Of a stretch of DNA of 62,481 nt, positions 77 to 60,727 are shown piece by piece. A program made the position numbers and the translations under genes. Origin of the DNA: Bacteroidaceae bacterium (GTDB lineage: Bacteria; Bacteroidota; Bacteroidia; Bacteroidales; Bacteroidaceae); the NCBI GenBank assembly GCA_017453465.1, contig JAFTEV010000038.1, positions 1 through 62,481 on the forward strand, written 5' to 3'. Under the pieces are notes generated by a model, which had not been told where the DNA came from, did no database searches, and worked only from the letters and a program-made list of their open reading frames with translations. How positions within the stretch are numbered: the first letter of the stretch is position 1; each line of letters starts with the position of its first letter.

Positions 77-183
77 CAAAATTATATCAAATTATCGTCA
101 GAAACATCTGACTATCAGTTTGCTAATTTTTAGAACATCCCAATAATGATTTAAGATAAAGTTTGTTCATTTTGAATTGAAAA

Positions 184-338
184 TAAAAAGGCGGAACTGC
201 TCTTTTGCTTTTCCGTCTTGATGGGCAACCGCCAAGTAGCCTTTTTACATAGAAAAGTGCGAACAATTCACGCCTAACGACGTGAACTTTCATCACTTGT
301 TCTCATGTATAAAAAATTGGCGGTTTTTCATCAAGACG
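184..338 (-). ncRNA. Structured RNA element A, with terminator-like 3' hairpin
   Basis: Read on the minus strand, nested helices are plain: outer stem 329-338 with 214-223 (CGUCUUGAUG/CAUCAAGACG, 10 pairs), then 317-324 with 228-235 (ACCGCCAA/UUGGCGGU), then 305-309 with 246-250, then a hairpin 281-286 with 267-272. The 3' strand of the outer stem overlaps a second hairpin (about 191-217) followed by a U-rich run at 180-189, so the two are mutually exclusive, as in an attenuator or riboswitch. The same core recurs at 45671-45844 with compensatory changes in the outer stem. It lies between the CotH gene and the next promoter and could be a 3' UTR element, a free small RNA or a regulator. No known RNA family was recognised. 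Nothing else was identified in 1-534. Confidence 0.6.
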
Positions 339-534
339 AGAACAAGGACAAGAAGTCCAAGTTTTTATCAATAAGTTAAGTTAGCAGAAACGCCGAGTGA
401 ATAATTTTTGTTAGTTGTTCTCTCTGTGGGGCGTACTGGCTTTGCCATGTATCATCCCCGATACGTTTCTAAAGTTCTATTTCTGTTTCTTAATAAAAAG
501 GTTTTAAAGGGTTAAACATTATATTATAAGACAT

Positions 535-3500
535 TTATTTTACCATCACCTTCTTCGTCAGCACAGTGCCGTCGGTCAGGCGGTACTTGGCGATGTAAAC
601 GCCTGTGCGCAGGGCTGAACGGCTGTGGCCTGCCGTGCGGCCATCCAGCGTGTAGTAGGCTGCGTCGGCCAGGGCTGTGGCGTGCTTCACGGAAGTGATG
701 TCGGTGGCTGTGCCCAGTGTCAGCTGGACGGGAGCCTTTCGGCTGCCCTGCACACTGGCAGTGAAGAAGAAGTGCTCGTTCACTTCCGAGACGAGCCCCG
801 TCTGCGGATGCGCTGCACGCAGGACGATGTTCTCCAGCTGCTCGCCATAGACCGTGAGGTAGAGCCTGTCGCCCACATACCTGCCCACACCGCGACACTC
901 GCCGTCCTCGGTGAATGCGCCGATGCTGTAGTCTGTCGTCTCCATGCCGTCGGCTGACACCTTGGCGATGATGTTCATCACGTTGGGGTAAGCATTCATG
1001 TTCACCGTCCAGGGAGAACGAGGCTGCGTGAAGAAGCGTGCCTTGGCCTGCTGGCCAGAGCCAACCGTCTGTTCCGGGTAACGGAATGCCTTCGTCTCGG
1101 CAGACTTGTAGAGGTAGGCCGCACCGGGCTGAAGCATCTGGAGCGAACCTTCCCAGTGGCCGTCTTCGTAAGTGGCAATGCCCGACTGCCCCACCAGGAT
1201 GTCGCCCTCAGTGGCTTTCAGTCCGTCCAGGGCAGAGCCGACGGACTGGGTTGTCAGCAGCGGATAGCCAATCCAGTTCCAGCCAGCCTTCAGGTTGATG
1301 GGTGTCGTGGCTACGTCGCAGAAGGGTCCCGTATAAGTATAGTCCATGGCGGAACGCATCTTCACCTTATAGCCCACGGCGGGCACAAGGTTCTGAAGAC
1401 TGCCCACCCAGCCTATCTTGCCATCATAGAGCGTCTGCCCCGTCTGTCCGACGAAGCGTTCAGCATTCGCCGCAATTGCAGAAACAGCAAGACTGCCCTC
1501 CAGCGGATGTGAAACCCAGTTCCAGCCCTCAGCCAGTTCCAGTGTGAAGTGAGCCTCCGGCTTGCCTGTGTTGTATGGTTTTGTGCCGATGAGTTGGGCG
1601 TAAGAAGTGTAAGTATTCTGCTTGCCAATGGTGGGAGCATCCATCAGATACACCTGCTGGCTGCCGTCGGGATAAAGTCCCACCGACTGGCGACCGCCAT
1701 GCACCACGTACTGGAGCGTGTCGGCCCACAGCCCGTCTTCGCTCGTCAGCACAACACACTCGCCCTTGGCGTTGCTCAGCTTGAAGGGCGCATGGAGTTG
1801 GGCTGTGCTCTCCCGCTTGCTGGCCCACACGACGAGGTGTCCCTTAGGTTCAATGGTGGTGTTCAGCTCATCGCTCTCAGGAATCTGGAACTTCTGCGGC
1901 TCCGTGAGGTCATCGGAGAGGTACATGCCCGCGAGGTCAATGGCCTCATCCGTGGTGTTGTAGAGTTCCACCCAGTCGTCCTTCTTGAAGTATTCGCTCA
2001 CATAGACCGTATTGCCGGCACTCACCTCGTTCACCTTCACGGGAGTGGCTCCGGCCAGCAGCTGGTCTTCGGCGGGAACTTCTTCCCACACGGCACGCAG
2101 CGACACGGTGCCCGATGTAGGCAGGGTATATTCGGGTTCTGTAGAGACGTAGTCCACATTCGACCTGTCGTAGGTCACGGCACTGAGCGCAGCATCCCAG
2201 AAGATGTCTGTCGATGTGCCCGAATTGTTGTGCAGTTCAACGGCTATCAGGTTGGAACCCTGCTGGAAGAGCGAAGCATCCAGCTTCATGGTGCCACGGT
2301 CGGGATTGTCGTGTGCCCAGGTAGAGGCATACTGACTGTACCTCACTTCGCCCGCAGGCATGTTGTAGCGGCCAGCCTCTGTGCCGTTCACATAGACAAT
2401 GAAACCGTCGTCGGCCACCCAGTCGAGGACATACTCATCGTCGGCTGCCACGGAACTGAGCACGAAGTTCTTGCGATAGTAGTAAGTAGGCAGGTTGTCC
2501 TGCGTCTTGGTCACGATGTCGGGGTGCTGGTTGTTGTTGTCGTAGCCAATGGGCGTTTGACCCGAACCCCAGCCCGTCACAGAGTAGGAAGGCTGCTGCC
2601 AGCCTGTGCCGTCAAGACTGCCCTGGTCGTAGAACCGCCAGCTGGAGCCTTTGCTGAACACAGTCTTCGTGATGGTGGGCAGGTCGCCGTCGTTCATCCA
2701 CCCAGCAAACTTGTAGCCCGCAGGGGCCACGGCCTTCACCGTCACAGGCGAGAAGAGCGCGCCGCTGAACTTGCCCGTAGGCACCTCCTGGTTGTTGAGC
2801 AAGAGCTGTGCTTCGCCGATGTTGCTGCCGAGGGTTGCCGTCAGCCTGTTGTTGGACGAAAGACCCAGATAGCTTTGCATATTGCCAATCATCGTGTTCT
2901 GTCGGCTGGCAAAGCTACTGATCAGGCTGTTGGCTGTGCTGTACGGACTCACGTAGCCACCCGTGGAGAGCAGGGCTGCACGCTCACTGATGACCTTGTT
3001 GGTCAGTTCGGGCGTAAAGACAGAACCCGCCACCAGACAGAAGGCATCGGCAAACCGCTTCTTGAAGGTCTCATTCTTCAGCATGTTCAGGAAGATGGTG
3101 ACAAACTTAATCTCCAGTGTCAGGTGTTTGCCCTCGATGTTCTCGTCCTTCGAGTAGTCGTAGCCATGCAGGGTGTCGAAGTAATAAGTCTGCTTGCCGG
3201 CAAATTCATTGAACGAATTGGCTGTGTTGAACGAGTGGTCGAGGTCGAACAGCGTGAAGTGGAACTTGCCGTCCACCTTGCTGCGGAAGCCCTTCACGTT
3301 GTTCTTGGGCCAGTCGTTGTTGCCCAGGTAGAGTTCGATGGCCTTGTAGTTGATGTACTCGTCCACGTCCACCAGTTCGCAGATTTCCTGGTAAGCCTGG
3401 GGCGAGGCTGCGTCCTTGGCCAGTTCATACCAGCGCAGGAAACTCTCGTCCGTGCCCGTCATTTGCACATAGCCCGAATCGGGACAGATTTCAAACTGGT

Positions 3501-5777: not shown

Positions 5778-5942
5778 AAGCCCGCAGAAAACCCACATTT
5801 TGCCCAGAAAACTAAATCTGCACCCGTTTTTTGCATCTTTTCTGCCACCAGCGCATTGCATCCCCACCCCATCTACACCCCTGCCCATTCTGTCCGCCAC
5901 TCCACAACAAACTTTCCCGCACTGCGAATCTTTCTCGCCCGC

Positions 5943-6056
5943 ATAGGCAACAAAACTAAGAATCATTGTTTGATTCTTGTAAATCATTGTTTGATTCTTA
6001 AGAATCATTGTGCGATTCTTAAGAATCAAACAATGATTTATAGTTTTATTGCCTAT
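5943..6056. repeat. 114-bp palindromic repeat with TAGGCAAT-type ends, copy 1
   Basis: Begins ATAGGCAA and ends TTGCCTAT. The inside is made of inverted and direct copies of an AATCATTGTTTGATTCTT module. It is the near-exact reverse complement of the copies at 19529-19642 and 39734-39847. It lies between the divergent promoters of the CotH and DUF362 genes. Open reading frames across it repeat NHCLIL and are artefacts of the repeat. Confidence 0.9.
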
Positions 6057-6227
6057 CTCGCAGCGTTCATATCGCAGTGCGGGCAAGTTTGGTGCGAAAG
6101 GTGAGCCAATTTGCTTCGGAGTGGCACCGTGTCGGCAATGCGCCCGGCGGTGAGGCGAAAAAGTTTGCCGGCGGAAGGAAAATTCAAAAATATCGAGCAA
6201 GAATGCAGTTATCACAGAAAAAATCAC

Positions 6228-19351: not shown

Positions 19352-19528
19352 GGACTTTTACCTTTATTCACTTGCAAAGATACGCCATCATTTATTAACA
19401 CACAAGAAAATCAGGAGTTTTTTTAACATACAAGCCTATATTCCCTATGCCATTTGCCCCGCAGTTCGATATAAAATCAGACACAGAGGCAACCTTTTTT
19501 GCTGCCACCGAAGATCATTCGGAGCGAG

Positions 19529-19642
19529 ATAGGCAATTATTCTATAAATCATTGTTTGATTCTTAAGAATCGCACAATGATTCTTAAGAATCAAACAATG
19601 ATTTACAAGAATCAAACAATGATTCTTAGAATTATTGCCTAT
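19529..19642. repeat. 114-bp palindromic repeat with TAGGCAAT-type ends, copy 2
   Basis: Begins ATAGGCAATTAT and ends AATTATTGCCTAT. Same internal AATCATTGTTTGATTCTT modules as copies 1 and 3; same orientation as copy 3, opposite to copy 1. It sits in the 566-base gap (19352-19917) before the pectin operon. Confidence 0.9.
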
Positions 19643-19798
19643 GCGAGCGGGAAGGAAAGGAAGTGCGGGCAAGAAAGAAGGACCGTGAGGGTGAAAAAGA
19701 AAGACTGTGCGGGAGAGGCGGCAGTGAGGGCTGACGGGGGTGGAGCGTACATTTTATGGGGGCGGGAATGTGTTTCTGCTTGTTTTTTAGCGGAAAAG

Positions 19799-39522: not shown

Positions 39523-39532
39523 CGATTTTTTT

Positions 39533-39596
39533 AGTTAAAAGTTAAAAGTTAAAAGTTAAAATGCCATGCGGAGTGTTCGCTGCAAGCCATTTTAAC
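39533..39596 (-). repeat. AGTTAAA-armed palindromic element next to the pta promoter
   Basis: Four tandem AGTTAAA units, then the 30-base core that starts ATGCCATGCGG, then a short inverted arm. Same core orientation relative to the promoter as at 49281 and 50930. Confidence 0.85.
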
Positions 39597-39675
39597 AGTT
39601 AAAAGTTAAAAGTTAAAAGTTAAAATGCCATGCGGAGTGTTCGCTGCAAGCCATTTTAACATTTAACTTTTAACT
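39597..39675 (-). repeat. Second tandem copy of the AGTTAAA palindromic element
   Basis: Repeats the preceding element almost exactly, with a full left arm, the same 30-base core and a longer right arm (TTTAACTTTTAACT). No promoter motif lies on its far side. Confidence 0.85.
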
Positions 39676-39733
39676 AAAAAACCGCCCCATCAGCAAAGGA
39701 AAAACGCGGAGACTGAAGAGCCAACGCTGCGAG

Positions 39734-39847
39734 ATAGGCATATATTCTATAAATCATTGTTTGATTCTTAAAAATCACACAATGATTCTTAAGAATCAAA
39801 CAATGATTTACAAGAATCAAACAATGATTCTTAGAATTATTGCCTAT
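39734..39847. repeat. 114-bp palindromic repeat with TAGGCAAT-type ends, copy 3
   Basis: Begins ATAGGCATAT and ends ATTGCCTAT; nearly the same sequence and orientation as copy 2. It lies in the 39460-40055 gap between pta and the surface-protein operon. Confidence 0.9.
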
Positions 39848-39990
39848 GTCGCTCCGTTCAAAGCAAAGTCAGGGAAAGTTTAGTAGCTTTCCTGACCGGT
39901 TTTTTGAAATAATCAGAGATTTATGCGACAGGTTCTATGATTGGTACATTCAGGTTCGTTGGCATTGAACTTGCCCAGAGGGGTGTCCAC

Positions 39991-40280: not shown

Positions 40281-41564
40281 TTATTTAACACACTTCTTTT
40301 GTCCATTCACAATGTACATTCCACGCACAGGGGCTGCACTCAGGCGGCGTCCCGTCAGGTCATAGACAGGGCCATCATCGTCCACCGTTTGGTGTGAGAC
40401 GGCTTCAATGCCCGTAGCCTCCTCGCCGCTCCCGACAATGCGGAAAGCCTTGACCTCGCTCGCCGTGGCCGACTGGAAGTAAGCACGGAAGGGTGCCACC
40501 GTGAAGTAGCCCGTTCCCTTCTTAAACTGGTTTGTGGCAATGTAGTACGACGGTGCAGCCTCATCCACAGTCACCGTGGTCTGGGCATACACTCCTTTCA
40601 GGGTGAACACGCTCTGCACATCAGTCAGCCCTGTGGCCAAAGCCGCGTTCTCCGCAGTCAGGGTCACGCCGTCACCGCCAGCCCAGCGGAACACGGCTGG
40701 ACAGCCTGCCTCCACGCGGTCTATCTCGTCGAAGTAAAGTACATTGCCCTGCTGGCTGCTAAGCTGATAGAGTTGCATCGTAGCATCAGACTGCACGGCG
40801 AAGGGCAGGCAGACCGTGCCCCACTCATTCGTCATCTGGCGCGAATAAGTGACCTGCGGCACTGTCACCTCCCCAGCAGGAGGCACCAGGCCACGACCAT
40901 CCACCAGCGTCAGCGTACCGCCCATGCCCGTCACCGCTGTTAAATCCAGTGTACCGATGCTTGTCTCGGTGGCCAAAGCCTCGTTCACAAAAGAGGGAAC
41001 ATAGCCCGAAAGGGGAAGCGTAGCATCAGTGGGAGCACCGACTTTCACGTAAGAAGTGGAGGTAGGAATCGTCACCCCCGTATGGCTATCTACACCCAGC
41101 ACCGTGCCCGTGATGGTTATCGGATAGATGCCAGCGGGCATATCGGCAGCCGTCTCATAATAGAAAATCAGCAGTTCGCCCTCTGTGCCGCTGATGGTTT
41201 CGAGGTCCGTATTATATATAGTAATGTAGTAGTGCCCGTCGGACTGCTGAGTCACGTCGCTGTCATGGTTCGGGATGAAGACCCCCTTCCTGGTCTTGCC
41301 AGGAAAACGCTCAGAACTCAGTTCCATCGGGTCGTAGTCGTCACTGTTCATAATCAGTGTCATGCCCTCTGGCAGATAGAGGTTAAACTCCAGTGCCGTG
41401 TAGCTCTGGGTATTCGTCATCTCAATCGAGAAAGTCTCGTCGCTACCTTCTGCATCGCCAGCAACGGTTGTAAAGGGCGTTACTTGCAATACGTCCTCTG
41501 CTCTGGCCACAGTCAGGGGCAAGAGCAAAAGGAGGGGAAAAATGGTTTTCGCAAATTTATTCAT
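40281..41564 (-). CDS. Secreted cohesin-like protein with C-terminal sorting domain
   Basis: 427 residues with a signal peptide (ending TVARAE). The first half (about 25-175) has a cohesin-type beta-sandwich pattern: VTPFTTVAGDAEGSDETFSI, YTALEFNLYLPEGMTLI, GTEGELLIFYYETAADMPAG, YPITITGTVLGVDS. A second beta-region (about 230-385) resembles the wall-facing domain found before sorting signals in Prevotella. The C-terminus (GPVYDLTGRRLS, GMYIVNGQKK) is a type IX secretion-like sorting motif. It overlaps the upstream dockerin protein gene by eight bases, so the two are probably produced together. Confidence 0.78.
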   Translation of the reverse strand: MNKFAKTIFPLLLLLPLTVARAEDVLQVTPFTTVAGDAEGSDETFSIEMTNTQSYTALEFNLYLPEGMTLIMNSDDYDPMELSSERFPGKTRKGVFIPNHDSDVTQQSDGHYYITIYNTDLETISGTEGELLIFYYETAADMPAGIYPITITGTVLGVDSHTGVTIPTSTSYVKVGAPTDATLPLSGYVPSFVNEALATETSIGTLDLTAVTGMGGTLTLVDGRGLVPPAGEVTVPQVTYSRQMTNEWGTVCLPFAVQSDATMQLYQLSSQQGNVLYFDEIDRVEAGCPAVFRWAGGDGVTLTAENAALATGLTDVQSVFTLKGVYAQTTVTVDEAAPSYYIATNQFKKGTGYFTVAPFRAYFQSATASEVKAFRIVGSGEEATGIEAVSHQTVDDDGPVYDLTGRRLSAAPVRGMYIVNGQKKCVK

Positions 41565-43050
41565 TGTTCTCTTCGTTATTTGATTTCATTATTTCAAGAA
41601 TACCTATCACGTCCAGGATGTTCGTGTCCGCATCCTCGTTGGTGTTGGCAGCCTCCTTAATCAGTGTCTCATCCTCAACGCCTTTCATCAAGGTCAGAGT
41701 AGATACCACATCCAGAATGTTCACGGCATCATCGCCGTTGGCATCGCCACGCTTATATACGCCCATCCTGCCGTTGCGGGTACGGGTGGTCACCGTGGTG
41801 CCATCGGGCTGAGTGACCGAAATCTGGTTAATCTTCACCTGATACGAAACACCCGTCTGTGCTGTGTCGGCCACGTTGACATGGAACGTCAGCAGGGGCA
41901 CTGTGCTGGCTGGAGTAGTTCCACCCACCAGAGAAATGACACAGACAGAGTCGTTGAGCGAAGTGAGCGAGGTTTCATATCCGCTGGCCACCTCGTCAAG
42001 CACGATGTCAGTGAGGTCGGGCATCAGGGCCGTGGGGAAAGTCAACTGGAATGTCATGTCAAGCAGTCCGTCGGTACTGGCCAAGTAGAGCGGATAGTCG
42101 ATGGTGCGACCAGGCACGCTGTTCACTGTCATCAGGTAGAACGAATACTTGTCCAGTGCAGGCATGTTGGGTTCACTGGGCGACGCGGGATTGAAGTAGA
42201 AACGAGCCTGAAAGTCCACGTCCTCTGTGCCCAAGGTGTAGGAGAAGTTGGGCAGCGAGGTGTAGAGCTGGCCGTTCAGGAACCAGCCCGCAAAGGAGTA
42301 GCCATCGTTCACGTTGGCCGTCAGTGTGAAGGAGTTGCCCTCGTAGATGAGTCCGCTGGTGCCATACCAGTAACCACCCTCCGTGGCATCGACGCTAACA
42401 TGATGGCGCGGAGTCGGCTGTACGGGTTCGGTGGGCGAAGCGGGCGCAAAGACATAGTTGGCATAGAGCGTGTCCTTCTTGGTCTGCGTGGTGTAGGTGA
42501 AAGAAGGGCTGGTGGAGAGCACGGTGCCGTCCTTGTCAGTCCAGTTCAAGAAGGCGTAGCCGCTTTCCGTACTGGCACTGATGCCCACACTGCATCCTGC
42601 CTGATAGCTGCCGCCACCCGATACGCCATTGCTGCCCGTGCGTCCCAGAACGGTGAGCTTATAGTAAAGAATCGTAGAGGGTTCAACGGGTTCGCTCGGC
42701 GCGCCGGGCGTGAACTCATAGTTAGCAATCAGGGTGTCGCTGGCCTCCGTGTTCGTGAAGTAGAACGACGTGGCCGTGGACAGGACATTCCCCTGCGTGT
42801 CCGTCCACCCACGGAATGTGTAGCCACTGTTGGCCGTGGCATACACGCGCACAGGTGTATTGACAAGGTGTTTTCCACCTCCCGACACGCTCCCGCCGTC
42901 GCTGCCCACATTTGTCAGCAGCACCAGTGCAGAATAGACATCGGGAGCCGCTGGCTCTGACGGGGAGGCGGGGTTGAAGTCGTCCTGCCCATGGGCAGCG
43001 AGGCCCATCAGGGCCATCACTGCCATAGACAAATAACGTATCTTGTTCAT
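41557..43050 (-). CDS. Secreted protein with InlB-type repeats, a cohesin-like domain and a dockerin
   Basis: 497 residues, signal peptide ending LAAHGQ. Three divergent InlB-type beta-repeats (about 45-295), each reading GYTFRGWTDTQGNVLST-like with YANYxFxPxxPSEP linkers between them. Then a cohesin-like domain (about 305-425: VNSVPGRTIDYPLYLAS, MTFQLTFPTALMP, PLLTFHVNVADTAQTG). The C-terminus is a type I dockerin with two calcium-loop repeats, GDANGDDAVNILDVVSTLTL and ANTNEDADTNILDVIGILEI. Cohesin and dockerin sit side by side in one chain. It lacks the usual sorting domain. Lies between the leucine-rich-repeat gene (9-base gap) and the cohesin-like gene. Confidence 0.82.
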   Translation of the reverse strand: MNKIRYLSMAVMALMGLAAHGQDDFNPASPSEPAAPDVYSALVLLTNVGSDGGSVSGGGKHLVNTPVRVYATANSGYTFRGWTDTQGNVLSTATSFYFTNTEASDTLIANYEFTPGAPSEPVEPSTILYYKLTVLGRTGSNGVSGGGSYQAGCSVGISASTESGYAFLNWTDKDGTVLSTSPSFTYTTQTKKDTLYANYVFAPASPTEPVQPTPRHHVSVDATEGGYWYGTSGLIYEGNSFTLTANVNDGYSFAGWFLNGQLYTSLPNFSYTLGTEDVDFQARFYFNPASPSEPNMPALDKYSFYLMTVNSVPGRTIDYPLYLASTDGLLDMTFQLTFPTALMPDLTDIVLDEVASGYETSLTSLNDSVCVISLVGGTTPASTVPLLTFHVNVADTAQTGVSYQVKINQISVTQPDGTTVTTRTRNGRMGVYKRGDANGDDAVNILDVVSTLTLMKGVEDETLIKEAANTNEDADTNILDVIGILEIMKSNNEENNE

Positions 43051-43059
43051 AGAGATTCT

Positions 43060-45639
43060 TTATTTTACAATTACTTTCACAGCCTTGCCGTTGGCACGAA
43101 CCACGTAGGTGCCCTGCGGCATTTCCACGATTTCGCCTTCAGCCTGAACAGCCTTGGTCTGCAGCAGACGACCGTCGAGCGCATAGACCTGAACCGTGCC
43201 GCTCCAGCCAGCGAGGTTGATGCCGCCATCGGTGCCAAAGATGCGGACAGGCTGCTGTGCGATGTCGGCAATGGCAGAAGCGACACCTGCAAACTGCAGT
43301 GTGAAGCGGCCTTCGTCAATGCCAGCCTGTGTGGTGAAGGCATAGTCTTGCTGCGCAAGGTCCACTGTCTGGTTGGCATAGTTGTCGGTCAGGATAACGG
43401 CTCCGGCATCGCAGCGCGGCATGGTCAGCGTGTATTGTCCGGCTTTCGTGGCATAAAGTCCCAGCTGAACAGTGCCGTCGGCAGCTGGACGCTCGTTGAT
43501 AGCGTACTCCGTGCCGTCAGTACCCAGGGTGTAGATTTGTGCGCTCTCGGCATCGGCACTGAGGAACTTGCTGGCATCGCAGTCCAGTTCGTAGTCGCAC
43601 TTGGCCTGTTCGTTCAGCACGATGCGTGTTTGGTCGCTAAATTGTGCATCGTAAATTTGGATGTCGATGAGCTGGCGAGTCTGTTCTGTGACAGTACGAG
43701 CCTTGGCCGCGTTCTGGCTCTCGATGGTGGCCGTAAGCTGACGACCCTGCAAGGGGAACGAAATGGTGTTCAACTCCGCACTGGGGCACTGCACAAAGAA
43801 AGCCTCGTTAGGACGGATGGCATAGTCATCATCGACCAGTGAATAAGCGGTATAGGTTCGGCTCTGTGCATTCCACACCGTGATGGGGCCTGTGAAGTTC
43901 AGCGCATGGTTATTGTAGTAACACTGGTATGGATTGCCCACCAAGTTCCAACCCTTGTTGGCAGTGTTCTCGGTGGCATTGACCTCCAGTGTCTTCGTAA
44001 ACTCCGTGTTGGCTACAATGTTTTGCTTGCTGGCACCAGCAAGGGCGTAGAAACCATTCCATGTATCCTTGTTGGTTTGGAAGATAAAGCCCGTGCCAGC
44101 GGGAATCACATCATCTTGGCTGTAGTTCTTCCACGAACCTGTAGCACCATTGGCAGCACGATTTGCACCATCGTAATAGCGGATAGCAAACTGCGTATTA
44201 TCAGCACCATGAATGATGTCTGAAATTTTGATGTCATAGGGAAGAGAGAAGAAGTACCAGTATTTAGCCGCAGTTTCAAGGTCAACACGTACATCGCCAC
44301 TAACCTGCACATGGTCGCAATTGCTCAGAATCTGACCAGGGTAGTTAACGAAACTATTTGAATTGCCACCAAGAATCAGGTTGTTGATGTTCTGTGTGGC
44401 ATCGCCATTGATTTTCAATGAAGGAAGGCGGTCTTTGGAACCAACAACTGTAATATTCGGACTTCCATTGAGACGGTCATGGTTCAGCACCAGTGGATTA
44501 TTGATGAACCAATCTTGAATTTCAGATGTGCTGAATGGTTCTATTGCTTTGCAATTATACCAATAACTATCCAACTTGTAGCTATTGACAAGAAAATCTG
44601 GAACAATGAGCGTAAGTTCCGGCACTTTCCAATCACGTATAGGTGGATATTGGCTATTAGCTGTTACTACGGTCGGCGAATTCAAACGCAATGTCTCCAA
44701 GCTATTGCAACCCTCAAAAATCCATTGATTCAATGCGTATTGCTGAGTGCCCAATTCTGCATATTTCAACTTGTCACAGTCAACAAAAGCATATTGCCCT
44801 AACCAAGACACATTCTGAGGCACTACGATGGATTCATAATCGCAAGACTGGAATGCGTATGAACCAATAGAAGTCAAGCTATTGGGCAACGAGGCATGAA
44901 TGCTTGTATACGAAAAAGCATTATCACCTATACCCTCCAAGCCTTCAGGGAATGAAATGTCAGACAGAGAACTACAGCGAGAAAACGCAGATGCCGAAAT
45001 CCATTTTAGATTTTCAGGAAGGACAACTGTTGTTAGGTTTTCACACCAACGAAATGAAGCTTCTGGAACAACCTCCAAATTTTTAGGAAGAACCACGGTT
45101 GTTAAATCTGACATGGATGAAAAAGTCAAAGATCCAAAATCAGTCATATTATCAGGCATATAAAGTTCCTTGATGTGGCTATATTCAAAAGCACAACTCC
45201 CCACAGACGTAACAGTTGAAGGAAGAAGCAAAGACTCAACATTGGAATAATAAAAGGCATATTCCCCGATGCTAAGTAAGCCTTCTGGTAATTTTACTGA
45301 TTGTAAATGCTGCATTACAGTGTCACTACTTGTTACTTGGAATTGTCTTGCTGGGATAGAAGTAAAAAGAGCTTCGCTCATATCAAGCTCCAATAAGTTT
45401 GACATCATCTTAATTTTTGCCCAGTCATCATCATTCATTGCGCCCCTTACTTTCAAACGACGGACATTTTTGACATGATCGGTTTGATACAGGACCTCTG
45501 TACCAAGGCTTCCTGGTTCTAATAAATCAACCGTGATGAGAGGTATCGAATTAGCCTCATCTTCTGCCCATACACCCTGTATGGAACAAAGGCTCACAAC
45601 AATTGCTGCAAGCGTAATTTTAAAGTCTACCTTTTTCAT
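43060..45639 (-). CDS. BspA-type leucine-rich-repeat surface protein with sorting domain
   Basis: 859 residues. Signal peptide MKKVDFKITLAAIVVSLC... ending VWAED. BspA/TpLRR-type leucine-rich repeats (about 65-345) of 22-24 residues with lines such as LPEGLLSIGEYAFYYSNVES and LPSTVTSVGSCAFEYS. A beta-domain follows (about 390-640), then Ig-like modules, and a type IX sorting domain at the end (VQVYALDGRLLQTK, GTYVVRANGKAVKVIVK). BspA proteins bind fibronectin, fibrinogen and other bacteria. First gene of a four-gene operon; the promoter at 45989 gives a 340-base leader that includes RNA element B. Confidence 0.9.
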   Translation of the reverse strand: MKKVDFKITLAAIVVSLCSIQGVWAEDEANSIPLITVDLLEPGSLGTEVLYQTDHVKNVRRLKVRGAMNDDDWAKIKMMSNLLELDMSEALFTSIPARQFQVTSSDTVMQHLQSVKLPEGLLSIGEYAFYYSNVESLLLPSTVTSVGSCAFEYSHIKELYMPDNMTDFGSLTFSSMSDLTTVVLPKNLEVVPEASFRWCENLTTVVLPENLKWISASAFSRCSSLSDISFPEGLEGIGDNAFSYTSIHASLPNSLTSIGSYAFQSCDYESIVVPQNVSWLGQYAFVDCDKLKYAELGTQQYALNQWIFEGCNSLETLRLNSPTVVTANSQYPPIRDWKVPELTLIVPDFLVNSYKLDSYWYNCKAIEPFSTSEIQDWFINNPLVLNHDRLNGSPNITVVGSKDRLPSLKINGDATQNINNLILGGNSNSFVNYPGQILSNCDHVQVSGDVRVDLETAAKYWYFFSLPYDIKISDIIHGADNTQFAIRYYDGANRAANGATGSWKNYSQDDVIPAGTGFIFQTNKDTWNGFYALAGASKQNIVANTEFTKTLEVNATENTANKGWNLVGNPYQCYYNNHALNFTGPITVWNAQSRTYTAYSLVDDDYAIRPNEAFFVQCPSAELNTISFPLQGRQLTATIESQNAAKARTVTEQTRQLIDIQIYDAQFSDQTRIVLNEQAKCDYELDCDASKFLSADAESAQIYTLGTDGTEYAINERPAADGTVQLGLYATKAGQYTLTMPRCDAGAVILTDNYANQTVDLAQQDYAFTTQAGIDEGRFTLQFAGVASAIADIAQQPVRIFGTDGGINLAGWSGTVQVYALDGRLLQTKAVQAEGEIVEMPQGTYVVRANGKAVKVIVK

Positions 45640-45670
45640 TTTGATAAAAATTTGTTTGGTGTTAATAAAT

Positions 45671-45844
45671 AAAAGTTTGGCGGTTCGTGATTGAATACAA
45701 AGAGGACGAAAACTTCATTGCTTATCCAATCACGGGCACCGCCAAGCGCCTTACACCAATAAACAAAAGAGAGTCCTCGTCCACACAGACGGAACTTCTG
45801 TCTTGCTTATCCTCGGTGTTGAAATTGGCGGTTTCTGTGACTGG
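45671..45844 (-). ncRNA. Structured RNA element B in the leader of the leucine-rich-repeat operon
   Basis: Same fold as element A on the minus strand: outer stem 45837-45844 with 45726-45733 (CCAGUCAC/GUGAUUGG), then 45825-45832 with 45738-45745 (ACCGCCAA/UUGGCGGU), then 45815-45819 with 45753-45757. The 3' strands of both inner helices can instead pair with a second ACCGCCAA and CAAUCAC at 45677-45693, forming a strong hairpin followed by ACUUUUAUUUAUU. That is a classical choice between an anti-terminator and a terminator, 35 bases before the ATG at 45639. The outer stem differs in sequence from A but keeps pairing. Confidence 0.65.
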
Positions 45845-45988
45845 AGAATAAGAAGCAAAAGCCTCGTTATATCAAAATGTCATTTAGTCTTGTTACGTTT
45901 AATTATTCCATTGGCGTAAATGTTTTAAGGGGTTAATAAATCACGTTTATTCTTATTGTAGGTTACTTTTTCGCTAATGTTTCGGCGG

Positions 45989-46020
45989 CAAAAATACAAA
46001 GTTCTCCTTTATTGTGCAAG
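45989..46020 (-). promoter_or_regulatory. Promoter of the leucine-rich-repeat operon
   Basis: CTTG (46017-46020) and TATTTTTG (45989-45996) on the minus strand with 20 bases between. Transcription would start near 45982 and cross RNA element B. Confidence 0.6.
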
Positions 46021-46078
46021 TTTTCAGGGAAAAAAGTTTTAGAATCAGTAATCAAGGGAAAAGCTGCAACCGCTTTTT

Positions 46079-46441
46079 TCATGCTTCTTCAGTCCAATTT
46101 GTTTCTGCAAGATAACGAGTAACCTGCTCACGGAGCGTGGTAAGTTCGTCTGTTATTACTTCCCATACTACGGCACTGTCTATCTGGAAGTATTCATGAA
46201 CGATGTAATTACGCATTCCTTTGACCATCTTCCAGGGCGTTTCGGGATGGTTGGCTTGAAATTCTGCCGTAAGCATATTGGCGGCTTCGCCTATTATCTC
46301 TATGTTTTTTACGACGGCATAGTACATCATGTCGTCAGCCAGCAAATCGCTGTAGGTTTTGCCGTCCACATACCGAGTAATACGGTCGATGGCAGCTACA
46401 ATATGTTCCAACCTTTCACGGTCTCTACGCTTTTCTCTCAT
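46079..46441 (-). CDS. hepT: HepT-like HEPN toxin (DUF86)
   Basis: 120 residues, all helical. Carries the HEPN RNase motif R77-N-Y-I-V-H82-E-Y84 (Rx4HxY) in MRNYIVHEYF. HepT proteins cut RNA; in the characterised Shewanella pair the partner MntA silences HepT by adding AMP to the motif tyrosine, which is present here. Overlaps the mntA reading frame by 17 bases. Last gene of the unit mntA-hepT. Confidence 0.92.
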   Translation of the reverse strand: MREKRRDRERLEHIVAAIDRITRYVDGKTYSDLLADDMMYYAVVKNIEIIGEAANMLTAEFQANHPETPWKMVKGMRNYIVHEYFQIDSAVVWEVITDELTTLREQVTRYLAETNWTEEA

Positions 46442-49227: not shown

Positions 49228-49261
49228 AGTTGTTTCGCTTTATTATTATATAATGTGGGCG

Positions 49262-49269
49262 CAAAGGTA
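49262..49269 (-). promoter_or_regulatory. Promoter -7 element of the glycyl radical enzyme, continuous with an AGTTAAA palindrome
   Basis: TACCTTTG on the minus strand. The 34 bases 49262-49295 (minus) are identical to 51001-51034 (plus) before dsbD. Confidence 0.8.
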
Positions 49270-49280
49270 CGACTTTTTTC

Positions 49281-49366
49281 AGTTAAAAGTTAAAAGTTAA
49301 AAGTTAAAATGCCATGCGGAGTGTTCGCCGTAAGCCATTTTAACTTTTAACTATTAACTTTTAACT
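49281..49366 (-). repeat. AGTTAAA-armed palindromic element next to the glycyl radical enzyme promoter
   Basis: Tandem AGTTAAA units, the ATGCCATGCGG core of 30 bases with two substitutions (CGCCGTAAG), and an inverted arm. Core, arm and promoter lie in the same order and orientation as at pta and dsbD. Confidence 0.85.
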
Positions 49367-49412
49367 AAAAAGGGGGCGCATTTCTGCTGAGCCAGATAGA
49401 CATTGTTTCGTT

Positions 49413-49634: not shown

Positions 49635-50942
49635 ATGGAGAAATCGCAGAGAGAACAGATTATAAATTTAGTGAAAAGCGAAGTGGTGCCAGCCGTCGGG
49701 TGTACCGAACCCATCGCTGTCGCCTTGTGTGTGGCGAAAGCAACGGAGACGCTGGGCAGGGTGCCCGAAAGCATCAGTGTGTTGCTGTCGGCCAACATCC
49801 TGAAAAACGCCATGGGCGTAGGCATTCCTGGCACCGACATGATTGGGCTGCCCATCGCCATTGCACTGGGCGCACTGATTGGCAAGTCGGAATACGAATT
49901 GGAGGTGCTGAAAGACGTTGACGACGAAGCCGTCCGACAGGCCAAGGCTTTCCTCCGGGAAGACCGCATCAGCATCCAGCTGAAAAAGGGCATCACCGAG
50001 AAGCTCTACATAGAAACCTGCGCAAGCTGTGGCAACGAAAACGCTCAAGCCGTCATCAGTGGCGGCCACTGCAACTTTACGCACATCATGAAGAACGGCC
50101 AGACCACGTACGCGAAGGAGACGGCCACAGAGGGACACCCGGAAGAAGATGACAGCTGGCTGACACTGAGCAAGGTGTATGAATTTGCCACCACTGCTCC
50201 GCTCGAAGAGATTGACTTCATCCACGAAGCCAGGGTGCTGAACGAGAAAGCCGCCGAAGAGTCGCTGAAAGGCAACTATGGCCACACGCTGGGCAAGACA
50301 CTGACCCGTCCGCTGGGTCGAGGCATCTTTGGCGACACTATCTTTGCCCACATCATTTCCTCCACAGCCTGTGCCTGTGATGCTCGCATGGCTGGAGCCT
50401 GCATCCCCGTGATGTCCAATTCGGGCAGCGGCAATCAGGGCATTTGCGCCACACTGCCCGTGGTGAAATTTGCCGAAGAAAACCACAACACCGAGGAGGA
50501 ACTCATCCGTGCCCTGATGCTCAGCCACCTGACGGCCATCTACATCAAGCAGTCGCTGGGCAAACTCTCTGCCCTGTGCGGCTGTGTGGTAGCCTCCACG
50601 GGGTCTGCCTGTGGCATTACCTACCTGATGGGCGGTGACTACCAGAAGATTACCTTCGCCGTAAAAAATATGATTGCCAACCTGACGGGCATGATTTGTG
50701 ACGGAGCCAAACCCTCGTGCGCACTGAAGCTGGCTTCGGGCGTGAGCACCGCCGTGCTGTCGGCCATGCTCGCCGTGCAGAGCAACTGCGTGTCGTCGGT
50801 CGAGGGCATCATCGAGGACGACGTGGACCGCTCCATCCACAACCTCACAAAAATCGGGAAGGACGCCATGGACGAAACCGACCACTGCGTGCTCGAAATT
50901 ATGACCTCGAAAAGCCAAAGCCAAACAAAAGTTAAAAGTTAA
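49635..50942 (+). CDS. L-cysteine desulfidase / L-serine dehydratase alpha family protein (UPF0597, YhaM/CyuA-like)
   Basis: 435 residues. Strong family lines: VVPAVGCTEPIAVALC, GVGIPGTD, CASCGNENAQAVISGGHCNF, CACDARMAGACIPVMSNSGSGNQGI, VVASTGSACGITYLMGG and ICDGAKPSCALKL. The conserved cysteines suit an oxygen-sensitive Fe-S enzyme of the type that degrades L-cysteine to pyruvate, ammonia and sulfide. The last residues (KVKS) are encoded by the first units of an AGTTAAA palindrome, so the repeat reaches into the reading frame. Divergent from the glycyl radical enzyme; both could serve amino-acid fermentation. Confidence 0.88.
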   Translation: MEKSQREQIINLVKSEVVPAVGCTEPIAVALCVAKATETLGRVPESISVLLSANILKNAMGVGIPGTDMIGLPIAIALGALIGKSEYELEVLKDVDDEAVRQAKAFLREDRISIQLKKGITEKLYIETCASCGNENAQAVISGGHCNFTHIMKNGQTTYAKETATEGHPEEDDSWLTLSKVYEFATTAPLEEIDFIHEARVLNEKAAEESLKGNYGHTLGKTLTRPLGRGIFGDTIFAHIISSTACACDARMAGACIPVMSNSGSGNQGICATLPVVKFAEENHNTEEELIRALMLSHLTAIYIKQSLGKLSALCGCVVASTGSACGITYLMGGDYQKITFAVKNMIANLTGMICDGAKPSCALKLASGVSTAVLSAMLAVQSNCVSSVEGIIEDDVDRSIHNLTKIGKDAMDETDHCVLEIMTSKSQSQTKVKS

Positions 50943-51015
50943 AAGTTAAAAGTTAAAATGGCTTGTAGCGAACACTCCGCATGGCATTTTAACTTTTAAC
51001 TTTTAACTTTTAACT
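50930..51015 (+). repeat. AGTTAAA-armed palindromic element next to the dsbD promoter
   Basis: Tandem AGTTAAA arm (which overlaps the 3' end of the preceding gene), 30-base core and a longer inverted arm ending 11 bases before TACCTTTG. Same element order as at 49281 and 39533, opposite strand. Confidence 0.88.
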
Positions 51016-51026
51016 GAAAAAAGTCG

Positions 51027-51034
51027 TACCTTTG
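51027..51034 (+). promoter_or_regulatory. Promoter -7 element of dsbD
   Basis: TACCTTTG, with the -33 region inside the palindrome arm. The start is predicted near 51041, 30 bases before the ATG at 51071. Confidence 0.75.
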
Positions 51035-51070
51035 CAGCCCCAAACCCACAAACCAGAAAGAGTAAAAAAA

Positions 51071-57995: not shown

Positions 57996-58016
57996 AAATG
58001 GTAGATGGAAGGAGTT

Positions 58017-58116
58017 TGAAGAAGATAAAAGGAGATAAAAGGAGATAAAGGACGTTACAAAATTTAGTATCGTCTTCTATCTCCTTTTATCTTCCTCTAT
58101 CTCCCTTTAACTTCCC
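58017..58116. repeat. GGAGATAAA-armed palindrome, copy 1
   Basis: Arms of GGAGATAAA-type units around the core GACGTTACAAAATTTAGTATCGTC, here between the lyase gene and its broken relative. The same core recurs inverted at 59789 and 60583. Confidence 0.85.
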
Positions 58117-58136
58117 CCAAAATTGTCAGATTGAAG

Positions 58137-59763: not shown

Positions 59764-59788
59764 ATTACTATTTGACAATTTTTTTTGT

Positions 59789-59893
59789 AGAAGTTAAAGG
59801 GAGATAGAGGGAGATAAAGGGAGATAGAAGACGATACTAAATTTTGTAACGTCCTTTATCTCCTTTTATCTTCTTCTAACTTCTTCTATCTAC
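59789..59893. repeat. GGAGATAAA-armed palindrome, copy 2
   Basis: AAAGGGAGATAGAGGGAGAT-type arm, core GACGATACTAAATTTTGTAACGTC, inverted arm with TTATCTCC units. Between argG and the GNAT gene. Confidence 0.88.
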
Positions 59894-59915
59894 CATTTTA
59901 ACTTTTAACTTCCTC

Positions 59916-60551: not shown

Positions 60552-60582
60552 TTGACAATTTACAATTTGACAATTTTTTTGT

Positions 60583-60645
60583 GGAAGTTAAAGGGAGATA
60601 GAGGGAGATAAAGGGAGATAGAAGACGATACTAAATTTTGTAACT
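60583..60645. repeat. GGAGATAAA-armed palindrome, copy 3 (one arm)
   Basis: The arm and core GACGATACTAAATTTTGTAAC repeat copy 2 exactly, but the inverted arm is missing; TTCATTTCAC follows. It is preceded by direct TTGACAATTT repeats and followed by direct CCTCATTCCTAATT repeats up to the argR stop codon. Confidence 0.8.
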
Positions 60646-60727
60646 TCATTTCACATTTGGAGTATCAATCGACTTCGTCGAGCTAAAGGTTCCTCATTCC
60701 TAATTCCTCATTCCTAATTCCTCATTC

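Follow-up and report, generated by a model that had tools for sequence, protein, structure and literature searches.

A family of RNA leaders with two mutually exclusive predicted folds, probably transcription attenuators, ahead of secreted-protein genes in Bacteroidota

The window analysed here is the whole stretch of 62,481 nucleotides of contig JAFTEV010000038.1 from a Bacteroidaceae bacterium (assembly GCA_017453465.1). On its minus strand, the gene for a BspA-type leucine-rich-repeat protein of 859 amino acids (43060-45639; LRR_5, 1.1e-55; DUF6383, 8.8e-06) is preceded by a leader with two opposing predicted folds. This gene is the first of three closely spaced minus-strand ORFs (43060-45639, 41557-43050, and 40281-41564). 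The leader is probably a transcription attenuator that uses trp-like strand exchange, and its relatives stand before many genes for secreted proteins. Its antiterminator and terminator share strands and are mutually exclusive, which is well supported by sequence comparison. The RNA family to which it belongs is new to Rfam.

The sequence ACCGCCAA occurs twice in the leader, upstream at 45832-45825 and downstream at 45684-45677 (minus strand, as for all leader positions below). The single copy of UUGGCGGU between them (45745-45738) is complementary to either one. This is the arrangement, with the same coordinates, that the original prediction described. It had expected CAAUCAC and GUGAUUG to behave in the same way; the downstream CAAUCAC is exact (45693-45687), but the upstream partner is CAGUCAC (45843-45837) and pairs with one G-U. 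The calculated duplex energies of the two alternatives are nearly equal in the window leader, −28.4 kcal/mol for the upstream and middle strands and −28.8 kcal/mol for the middle and downstream strands. When the middle strand takes its downstream partner, a hairpin results that is followed by a U-rich tail, ACUUUUAUUUAUU (45676-45664). The hairpin had been placed just before the ATG, and it is present, but its tail stops 24 nt short of the ATG at 45639. The fold of the 245-nt leader is unusually stable when compared with shuffled sequences (z = −6.00; 0 of 200 shuffles as good). The whole window contains eight copies of ACCGCCAA against a mean of 2.51 in 100 shuffles, none of which reached eight.

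The element is larger than the 45671-45844 first assigned to it. It takes in a promoter-like site (46019-45989), a hairpin (45865-45852), the conserved core (45852-45717), and a terminator strand (45716-45702). The order of strands is b1, a1, P2, b2, c1, c2, b3, P2', a2, b4, and c3, with an additional strand a3 in a subgroup termed B-like. In the antiterminator, a long rod, the pairs are b1:b4, a1:a2, P2, b2:b3, and c1:c2. In the terminator, c2-b3 pairs with b4-c3, and a T-rich run follows. A U tract lies behind the terminator and ahead of the first gene, as expected of an attenuator.

In the window copy (element B), the core at 45717-45852 scores 129.3 bits with our first covariance model, R1, which was trained on it among others, and 106.4 bits with a second model, R2. 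Directly ahead of the core is the hairpin P-alpha (GAGGC-UUUU-GCUUC, 45852-45865). Strand b1 (CUUAUUCUC, 45844-45852) has b2 as its partner in a predicted early hairpin and b4 in the rod. Strand a1 (45825-45843) is composed of CAGUCAC and the upstream copy of ACCGCCAA, and it is followed at 45805-45819 by the 5′ strand of P2 (ACACC, 45819-45815) and b2 (GAGGAUAAGC, 45814-45805). The apical hairpin (45769-45798) consists of c1 (45798-45788) and c2 (45782-45769); the latter doubles as the 5′ strand of the first terminator. The 3′ side of the rod (45720-45757) is made up of the P2 3′ strand GGUGU (45757-45753), a2 with its UUGGCGGU, GUGAUUG (45733-45727), and b4 (GAUAAGC, 45726-45720). Strand c3 (GAAGUUUUCGUCCUC, 45702-45716) serves as the 3′ strand of the first, general terminator. 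In the window copy it is followed by CUCUUUGUAUU, a weak tail and a poor U tract. These assignments come from sequence and covariation, for a1 and a2 also from the duplex energies, and for b1 from a series of predicted folds.

Strand a3 (45664-45693) contains CAAUCAC, the downstream copy of ACCGCCAA, and the U-rich tail. It is present in six B-like leaders, that of the window and those of five other genomes. In these six, a2 pairs with its own a1 at a mean of −26.7 kcal/mol, compared with −18.8 kcal/mol for the a1 of other members. With its own a3 the mean is −25.3 kcal/mol, compared with −19.5 kcal/mol when a3 is swapped. This preference for the own partner agrees with the original proposal of mutually exclusive pairings with a terminator-like outcome. 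Strand a3 looks like a second terminator that is peculiar to the B-like subgroup and is added to the general one. The a1/a2/a3 arrangement is the pattern that was reported at the outset.

The window copy is matched by R1 on the opposite strand as well, but more weakly (33.3 vs 129.3 bits). A real RNA on that strand was rejected given the weaker match and the location of c3, the T-rich run, and the ORF, all on the sense side. The inverted repeats do not flank a promoter-like site, as they would in an invertible promoter or phase switch; the site at 46019-45989 lies outside the repeats.

R1 was built from seven sequences, including the window copy but not the copy at the start of the window (element A, 204-346, minus strand). 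It finds A with 52.8 bits and an E value of 1.7e-14, which supports the original supposition that the two are the same element. Behind A there is only a 15-codon ORF and then a new promoter-like site. A seems to be an orphan leader (204-346 and 100-180, minus strand) whose gene may have been lost. Six other genomes of the genus gave relatives in a DNA search (E up to 1.2e-6), and these stand before differing secreted-type proteins wherever an ORF is readable. Within the genus, R1 has matches in 29 of 45 genomes (E up to 0.01). The matches in the genus were cut by hand to one strand each and give 78 places, a count that includes a duplicate on contig C84 and one leader (L140) taken on the wrong strand (R2 places it on the plus strand). 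We rejected C84 as an independent second copy because the 4636 nt compared are identical to the window, and it was treated as an assembly duplicate. Such identity could reflect a duplicated assembly or mixed strains.

R2 was built from 57 matches from 55 chosen sources and applied with a cut-off of E up to 1e-6. It finds the element in 182 of 301 genomes (22 of 30 genera) at the level of the family, 64 of 198 (52 of 151) at that of the order, and 15 of 247 (12 of 122) at that of the phylum, the own genome being included each time. Wherever more than 40 genomes were searched, the filters were strict and only a few candidates in each genome were scored, so that the counts are lower bounds. The 232 genomes of the phylum set with no R2 match serve as a rough check of specificity. 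The own genome has 22 R2 matches, that is, 15 places and seven opposite-strand matches; without the C84 duplicate, 14 distinct places are left. These copies diverge in sequence yet keep their pairing. At four of them (C21, C40, the second copy on C47, and C94) the helix of ACCGCCAA and UUGGCGGU is exchanged for other complementary pairs.

A strict pattern scan of named genomes returned at least 118 stretches. The named isolates among the 80 stretches listed are Leyella stercorea, Paraprevotella clara, Xylanibacter caecicola, Palleniella intestinalis, and P. muris, with six to nine matches each (opposite-strand ones included); the remaining matches listed are metagenome assemblies. Typical class-1 elements also precede secreted-type ORFs in a record that bears the title Bacillota (JAMPFD01) and is perhaps misnamed. 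No Rfam 15 family reaches its gathering cut-off on the element in the window or in 20 loci. With permissive E values, positions 45400-46200 and 30 loci gave only chance-level matches on the element. A TPP riboswitch match slightly below its cut-off (53.8 of 54.3 bits) was seen in locus L289 at 3209-3298, away from the element.

Covariation was assessed in a MAFFT alignment of 42 of the 78 leaders, which is independent of our models. The six B-like leaders, the C84 duplicate, two leaders with inserts (L126 and L134), identical rows, rows that lack the CTT[AG]T start, and rows with short flanks were left out. In this alignment, 88.4% of the cells are paired for the rod and likewise 88.4% for the terminator. 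Cells in which both sides have changed number 203 for the rod (85 when shuffled) and 50 for the terminator (25 when shuffled; 300 shuffles). Two of the four measures exceed the shuffles only moderately for the terminator, for which the double-change pairs were reached by 10 of 300 shuffles and the further pair types by 15 of 300; the further pair types of the rod were reached by 5 of 300. A model-fitted alignment of 57 sequences, which leans towards the structure, has changes on both sides in 40 of 47 rod pairs and 587 double-change cells (178 when shuffled).

Swap tests were carried out on the same 42 leaders, and since these sequences are related, the resulting permutation counts should not be taken as probabilities. 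P-alpha, P1a and P1b (the helices formed by a1), P2, c1:c2, b3:b4, and c2:c3 each favour their own partner (0 of 2000 permutations), as does b2:b3 (1 of 2000). The pairings b1:b4 (1813 of 2000) and b1:b2 (304 of 2000) have no covariation support because b1 hardly varies. Rod and terminator thus both covary in 42 leaders other than that of the window, and the predicted alternative pairings are kept in homologous leaders, as the original prediction required. A chance palindrome was rejected on this covariation.

The c2:c3 pairing was examined in 35 distant loci, which belong to other families of the order or lie beyond it and were hand-picked, mostly among the high scorers, from longer lists. 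These loci were found with the model, so that rod pairing is selected there; c3 lies outside the model and is unselected. Strand c3 pairs with its own c2 at −17.5 kcal/mol, compared with −12.1 kcal/mol for other partners (0 of 5000 permutations). A control strand showed no preference for its own partner (1409 of 5000). A T-rich run follows 69 of the 78 copies (nine lack it) and 34 of the 35 distant loci.

Genes downstream of the element were counted at 77 places (C84 omitted), with 60 codons as the minimum length of an ORF. At 65 of 77 places a sense ORF begins no more than 200 nt away, compared with 16 of 75 on the opposite side; 12 of the 77 copies have no ORF within this distance. From the first T4 run, the ATG lies at a median distance of 20.5 nt (58 cases). 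A crude script called a signal peptide, lipobox, or membrane start in 54 of the 65 downstream proteins; among the other ORFs at the same loci that reach 150 amino acids, the share was 35 of 121. Pfam domains were assigned to 62 of the 65 (L079, L094, and L129 were dropped as spurious or near-duplicate). LRR_5, the BspA repeat, is the commonest domain (14 proteins), a T9SS sorting tail is present in six, and the rest are diverse. We found no single metabolic theme, as would be expected of genes under a riboswitch; the genes are diverse and mostly encode secreted proteins. Control of a BspA adhesin operon had been proposed. The element does head a BspA gene in the window, but this description is too narrow. 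A search before other BspA genes, as had been suggested, finds the element at four of the ten LRR_5 loci of the own genome (a manual grouping of 23 matches), namely on C11, on C71, and twice on C47, where one of the two loci has a stop in frame. A device for BspA genes only was rejected on these two counts.

A promoter-like site of the Bacteroidetes TAnnTTTG type was located by a pattern scan at 45989-46019 (TTG at 46019-46017 and TATTTTTG at 45996-45989); the consensus is quoted in the available text of PMC9723704. Over the 260 nt scanned ahead of each core, TTG..TAnnTTTG starts at 221 to 244 nt in 18 of the 78 places and nearer in others, and in many none was found. Between this site and the core, the window holds GCCAAUGGAAUAA at 45915-45903, which contains a putative minimal upstream ORF, AUG GAA UAA, in the context GCCAAUG (45903-45911). 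The motif GCC[AT]ATG is present in 23 of the 78 places, and a stop follows within two codons for 21 of its 24 occurrences. ATG-codon-stop is over-represented between promoter and core: it accounts for 35 of 206 ATGs in the genus set and for 14 of 82 among the distant loci, and a further 12 ATGs of the latter are followed directly by a stop. The excess of minimal ORFs with zero or one codon between AUG and stop was noted upstream of the core in leaders L065-L140 and L279-L313. In a survey that was systematic for such very short ORFs, only these stand out among leader ORFs. The minimal ORF may serve as an input from translation, or it may be no more than a motif in the sequence.

Minimum free energy folds of the growing transcript, calculated for the window leader, show the b1:b2 hairpin first and the rod once b3 and a2 have emerged. 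The rod then remains the best fold to the end of the transcript. With c3 kept single, its computed energy is below that of the forced terminator in 37 of the 42 leaders, by a mean of 11.0 kcal/mol, so termination would need kinetics or a factor. The computed default would be read-through, and termination would occur if the 5′ strand is held or if the exchange is slow. We envisage that the early 5′ hairpin b1:b2 forms while the leader is transcribed. As b3, a2, and b4 emerge, the strands would exchange into the long rod. The rod would sequester c2, b3, a2, and b4, the terminator would be blocked, and the gene would be read. If the 5′ strand were held or the exchange slowed, the terminator of c2-b3 with b4-c3 would form at the U tract and transcription would stop just before the gene. 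In the B-like subgroup, a2 with a3 would act in addition.

The trp-type transcription attenuators follow a pairing logic of 1:2, 2:3, and 3:4. The element resembles them in that its predicted early hairpin, antiterminator, and intrinsic terminator share strands before the first gene. It differs in its leader ORFs, since the survey of short ORFs gave no leader peptide that carries regulatory codons and part of the copies have just the minimal AUG-codon-stop ORF. Its genes have no common biosynthetic pathway, and it has no Rfam match. We conclude that the element would work like a trp-type attenuator, yet it is filed neither as a leader-peptide attenuator nor as a riboswitch.

Several RNAs of the phylum are comparable in part. 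Bacteroid-trp (RF01692) appears among the Bacteroidetes motifs named in PMC2864571. HMP2_4205 is described in the accessible text of Fremin and Bhatt 2021 (PMC8040213) as a 132 bp palindromic element with a predicted terminator, mostly in Bacteroidetes. It resembles our element in palindrome, terminator, and taxa and, compared by description only, could be a piece of the family, although that text places it near tetratricopeptide-repeat genes and describes no switch. The available sections of PMC9723704 report 64 structured 5′ regions in Flavobacterium psychrophilum together with matches to Flavo-1 RNA (RF01705), a structured Bacteroidetes motif among such regions. Like Flavo-1, the element is a structured Bacteroidetes RNA, but the Flavo-1 model, at E up to 2 to 5, has no match in 30 element-bearing loci at order level, at phylum level, or more remote. 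The sRNAs FopS and GibS of Bacteroides thetaiotaomicron (approximately 65-70 nt, acting in trans by a 5′ seed; PMC11697453) are likewise a many-copy RNA family of the phylum tied to surface proteins. They differ, in the text at hand, in a simple terminator end with no antiterminator rod. The map of B. thetaiotaomicron attributes 5′ UTRs of more than 100 nt to 13.5% of mRNAs, some with short ORFs, in the accessible part of PMC7366714. The available text of PMC2864571, PMC6414381, and PMC11697453 concerns RNAs other than this element. In the main text of the open-licence papers searched, we found no description of this switch.

Other explanations of the element can be weighed against attenuation. 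A metabolite riboswitch, with the conserved internal-loop and loop segments as aptamer and the rod or terminator as expression platform, appears doubtful. Segments around the internal loops read alike by eye across phylum-level loci, and one group has a long 5′ region ahead of the core; however, the downstream genes have no pathway in common, the core helices vary almost freely, and the 5′ region is short in many copies. The original prediction allowed that the hairpin might end a stand-alone small RNA of about 315 bases. Such an RNA (approximately 320 nt here) would act in trans and end at the terminator, and the gene would be expressed by read-through or from its own start. We consider this unlikely. 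The promoter-like site, the terminator-like end, and copy A with no gene behind it would suit it, but the closeness of sense ORFs to the element (65 of 77 vs 16 of 75) and the short distance from T4 run to ATG would not, and a strand-exchange design would be unnecessary.

That the leader is constitutive, and protects or insulates the mRNA with a terminator that seldom or never forms, is quite unlikely. The greater stability of the rod in 37 of 42 leaders would accord with it, but covariation keeps c3 and b4 pairing to c2-b3, for which an insulator has no need. It is highly improbable that the element is a palindromic DNA repeat, dispersed or mobile, that plays no part in regulation. Many copies per genome, palindromes strong enough for matches on both strands, and the position of copies near contig ends in some distant genomes of the order (G340, G451, and G496), where assembly-breaking repeats would lie, point that way. 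Near-identical copies with no fixed relation to genes would be expected of such a repeat and were not seen in the copies compared. Copies within one genome diverge but still pair, their orientation to genes is fixed, and c3 and the T-rich run are kept. The strict class-1 pattern, which other classes would escape, has no match in viral contigs; a phage-borne element was rejected on the same result.

If attenuation is the correct reading, the element would provide a level of regulation that acts once transcription has begun and that governs what these bacteria present to host and community. To our knowledge, few regulatory RNA classes native to Bacteroidota, a dominant gut phylum, are known. One genome has the leader at 14 distinct places; it is found in much of the order and sporadically elsewhere in the phylum, and adhesin-like, T9SS-tailed, and lipoprotein genes are among those that it precedes. 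More tentatively, it is possible that the four repeated segments, which would swap partners between b1:b2 with b3:b4 and b1:b4 with b2:b3, and the complementary loops a1 and a2 form a Bacteroidota-wide device. A single cellular signal common to the copies, perhaps the start and stop of translation at the minimal AUG-codon-stop ORF, might then set transcription separately for each gene in a whole set that encodes surface and secreted proteins. The covariation yields exact predictions, and isolates that bear copies are named above.

Two neighbouring features of the window were also noted. Just upstream of the leader is a gene for a HepT-like ribonuclease (PF01934; 46079-46740, minus strand), preceded by a short ORF that, by motif, we take to be nucleotidyltransferase-like. 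The two look like a HepT-MNT toxin-antitoxin pair. Long palindromic repeats of three other families also lie between genes in the window; their copies are up to 92-96% alike, and by eye they are unrelated to the element. They are located at 5912-6067, 19507-19673, and 39712-39858 (family 1), at 39526-39680, 49254-49371, and 50923-51042 (family 2), and at 58000-58125, 59779-59904, and 60574-60651 (family 3).
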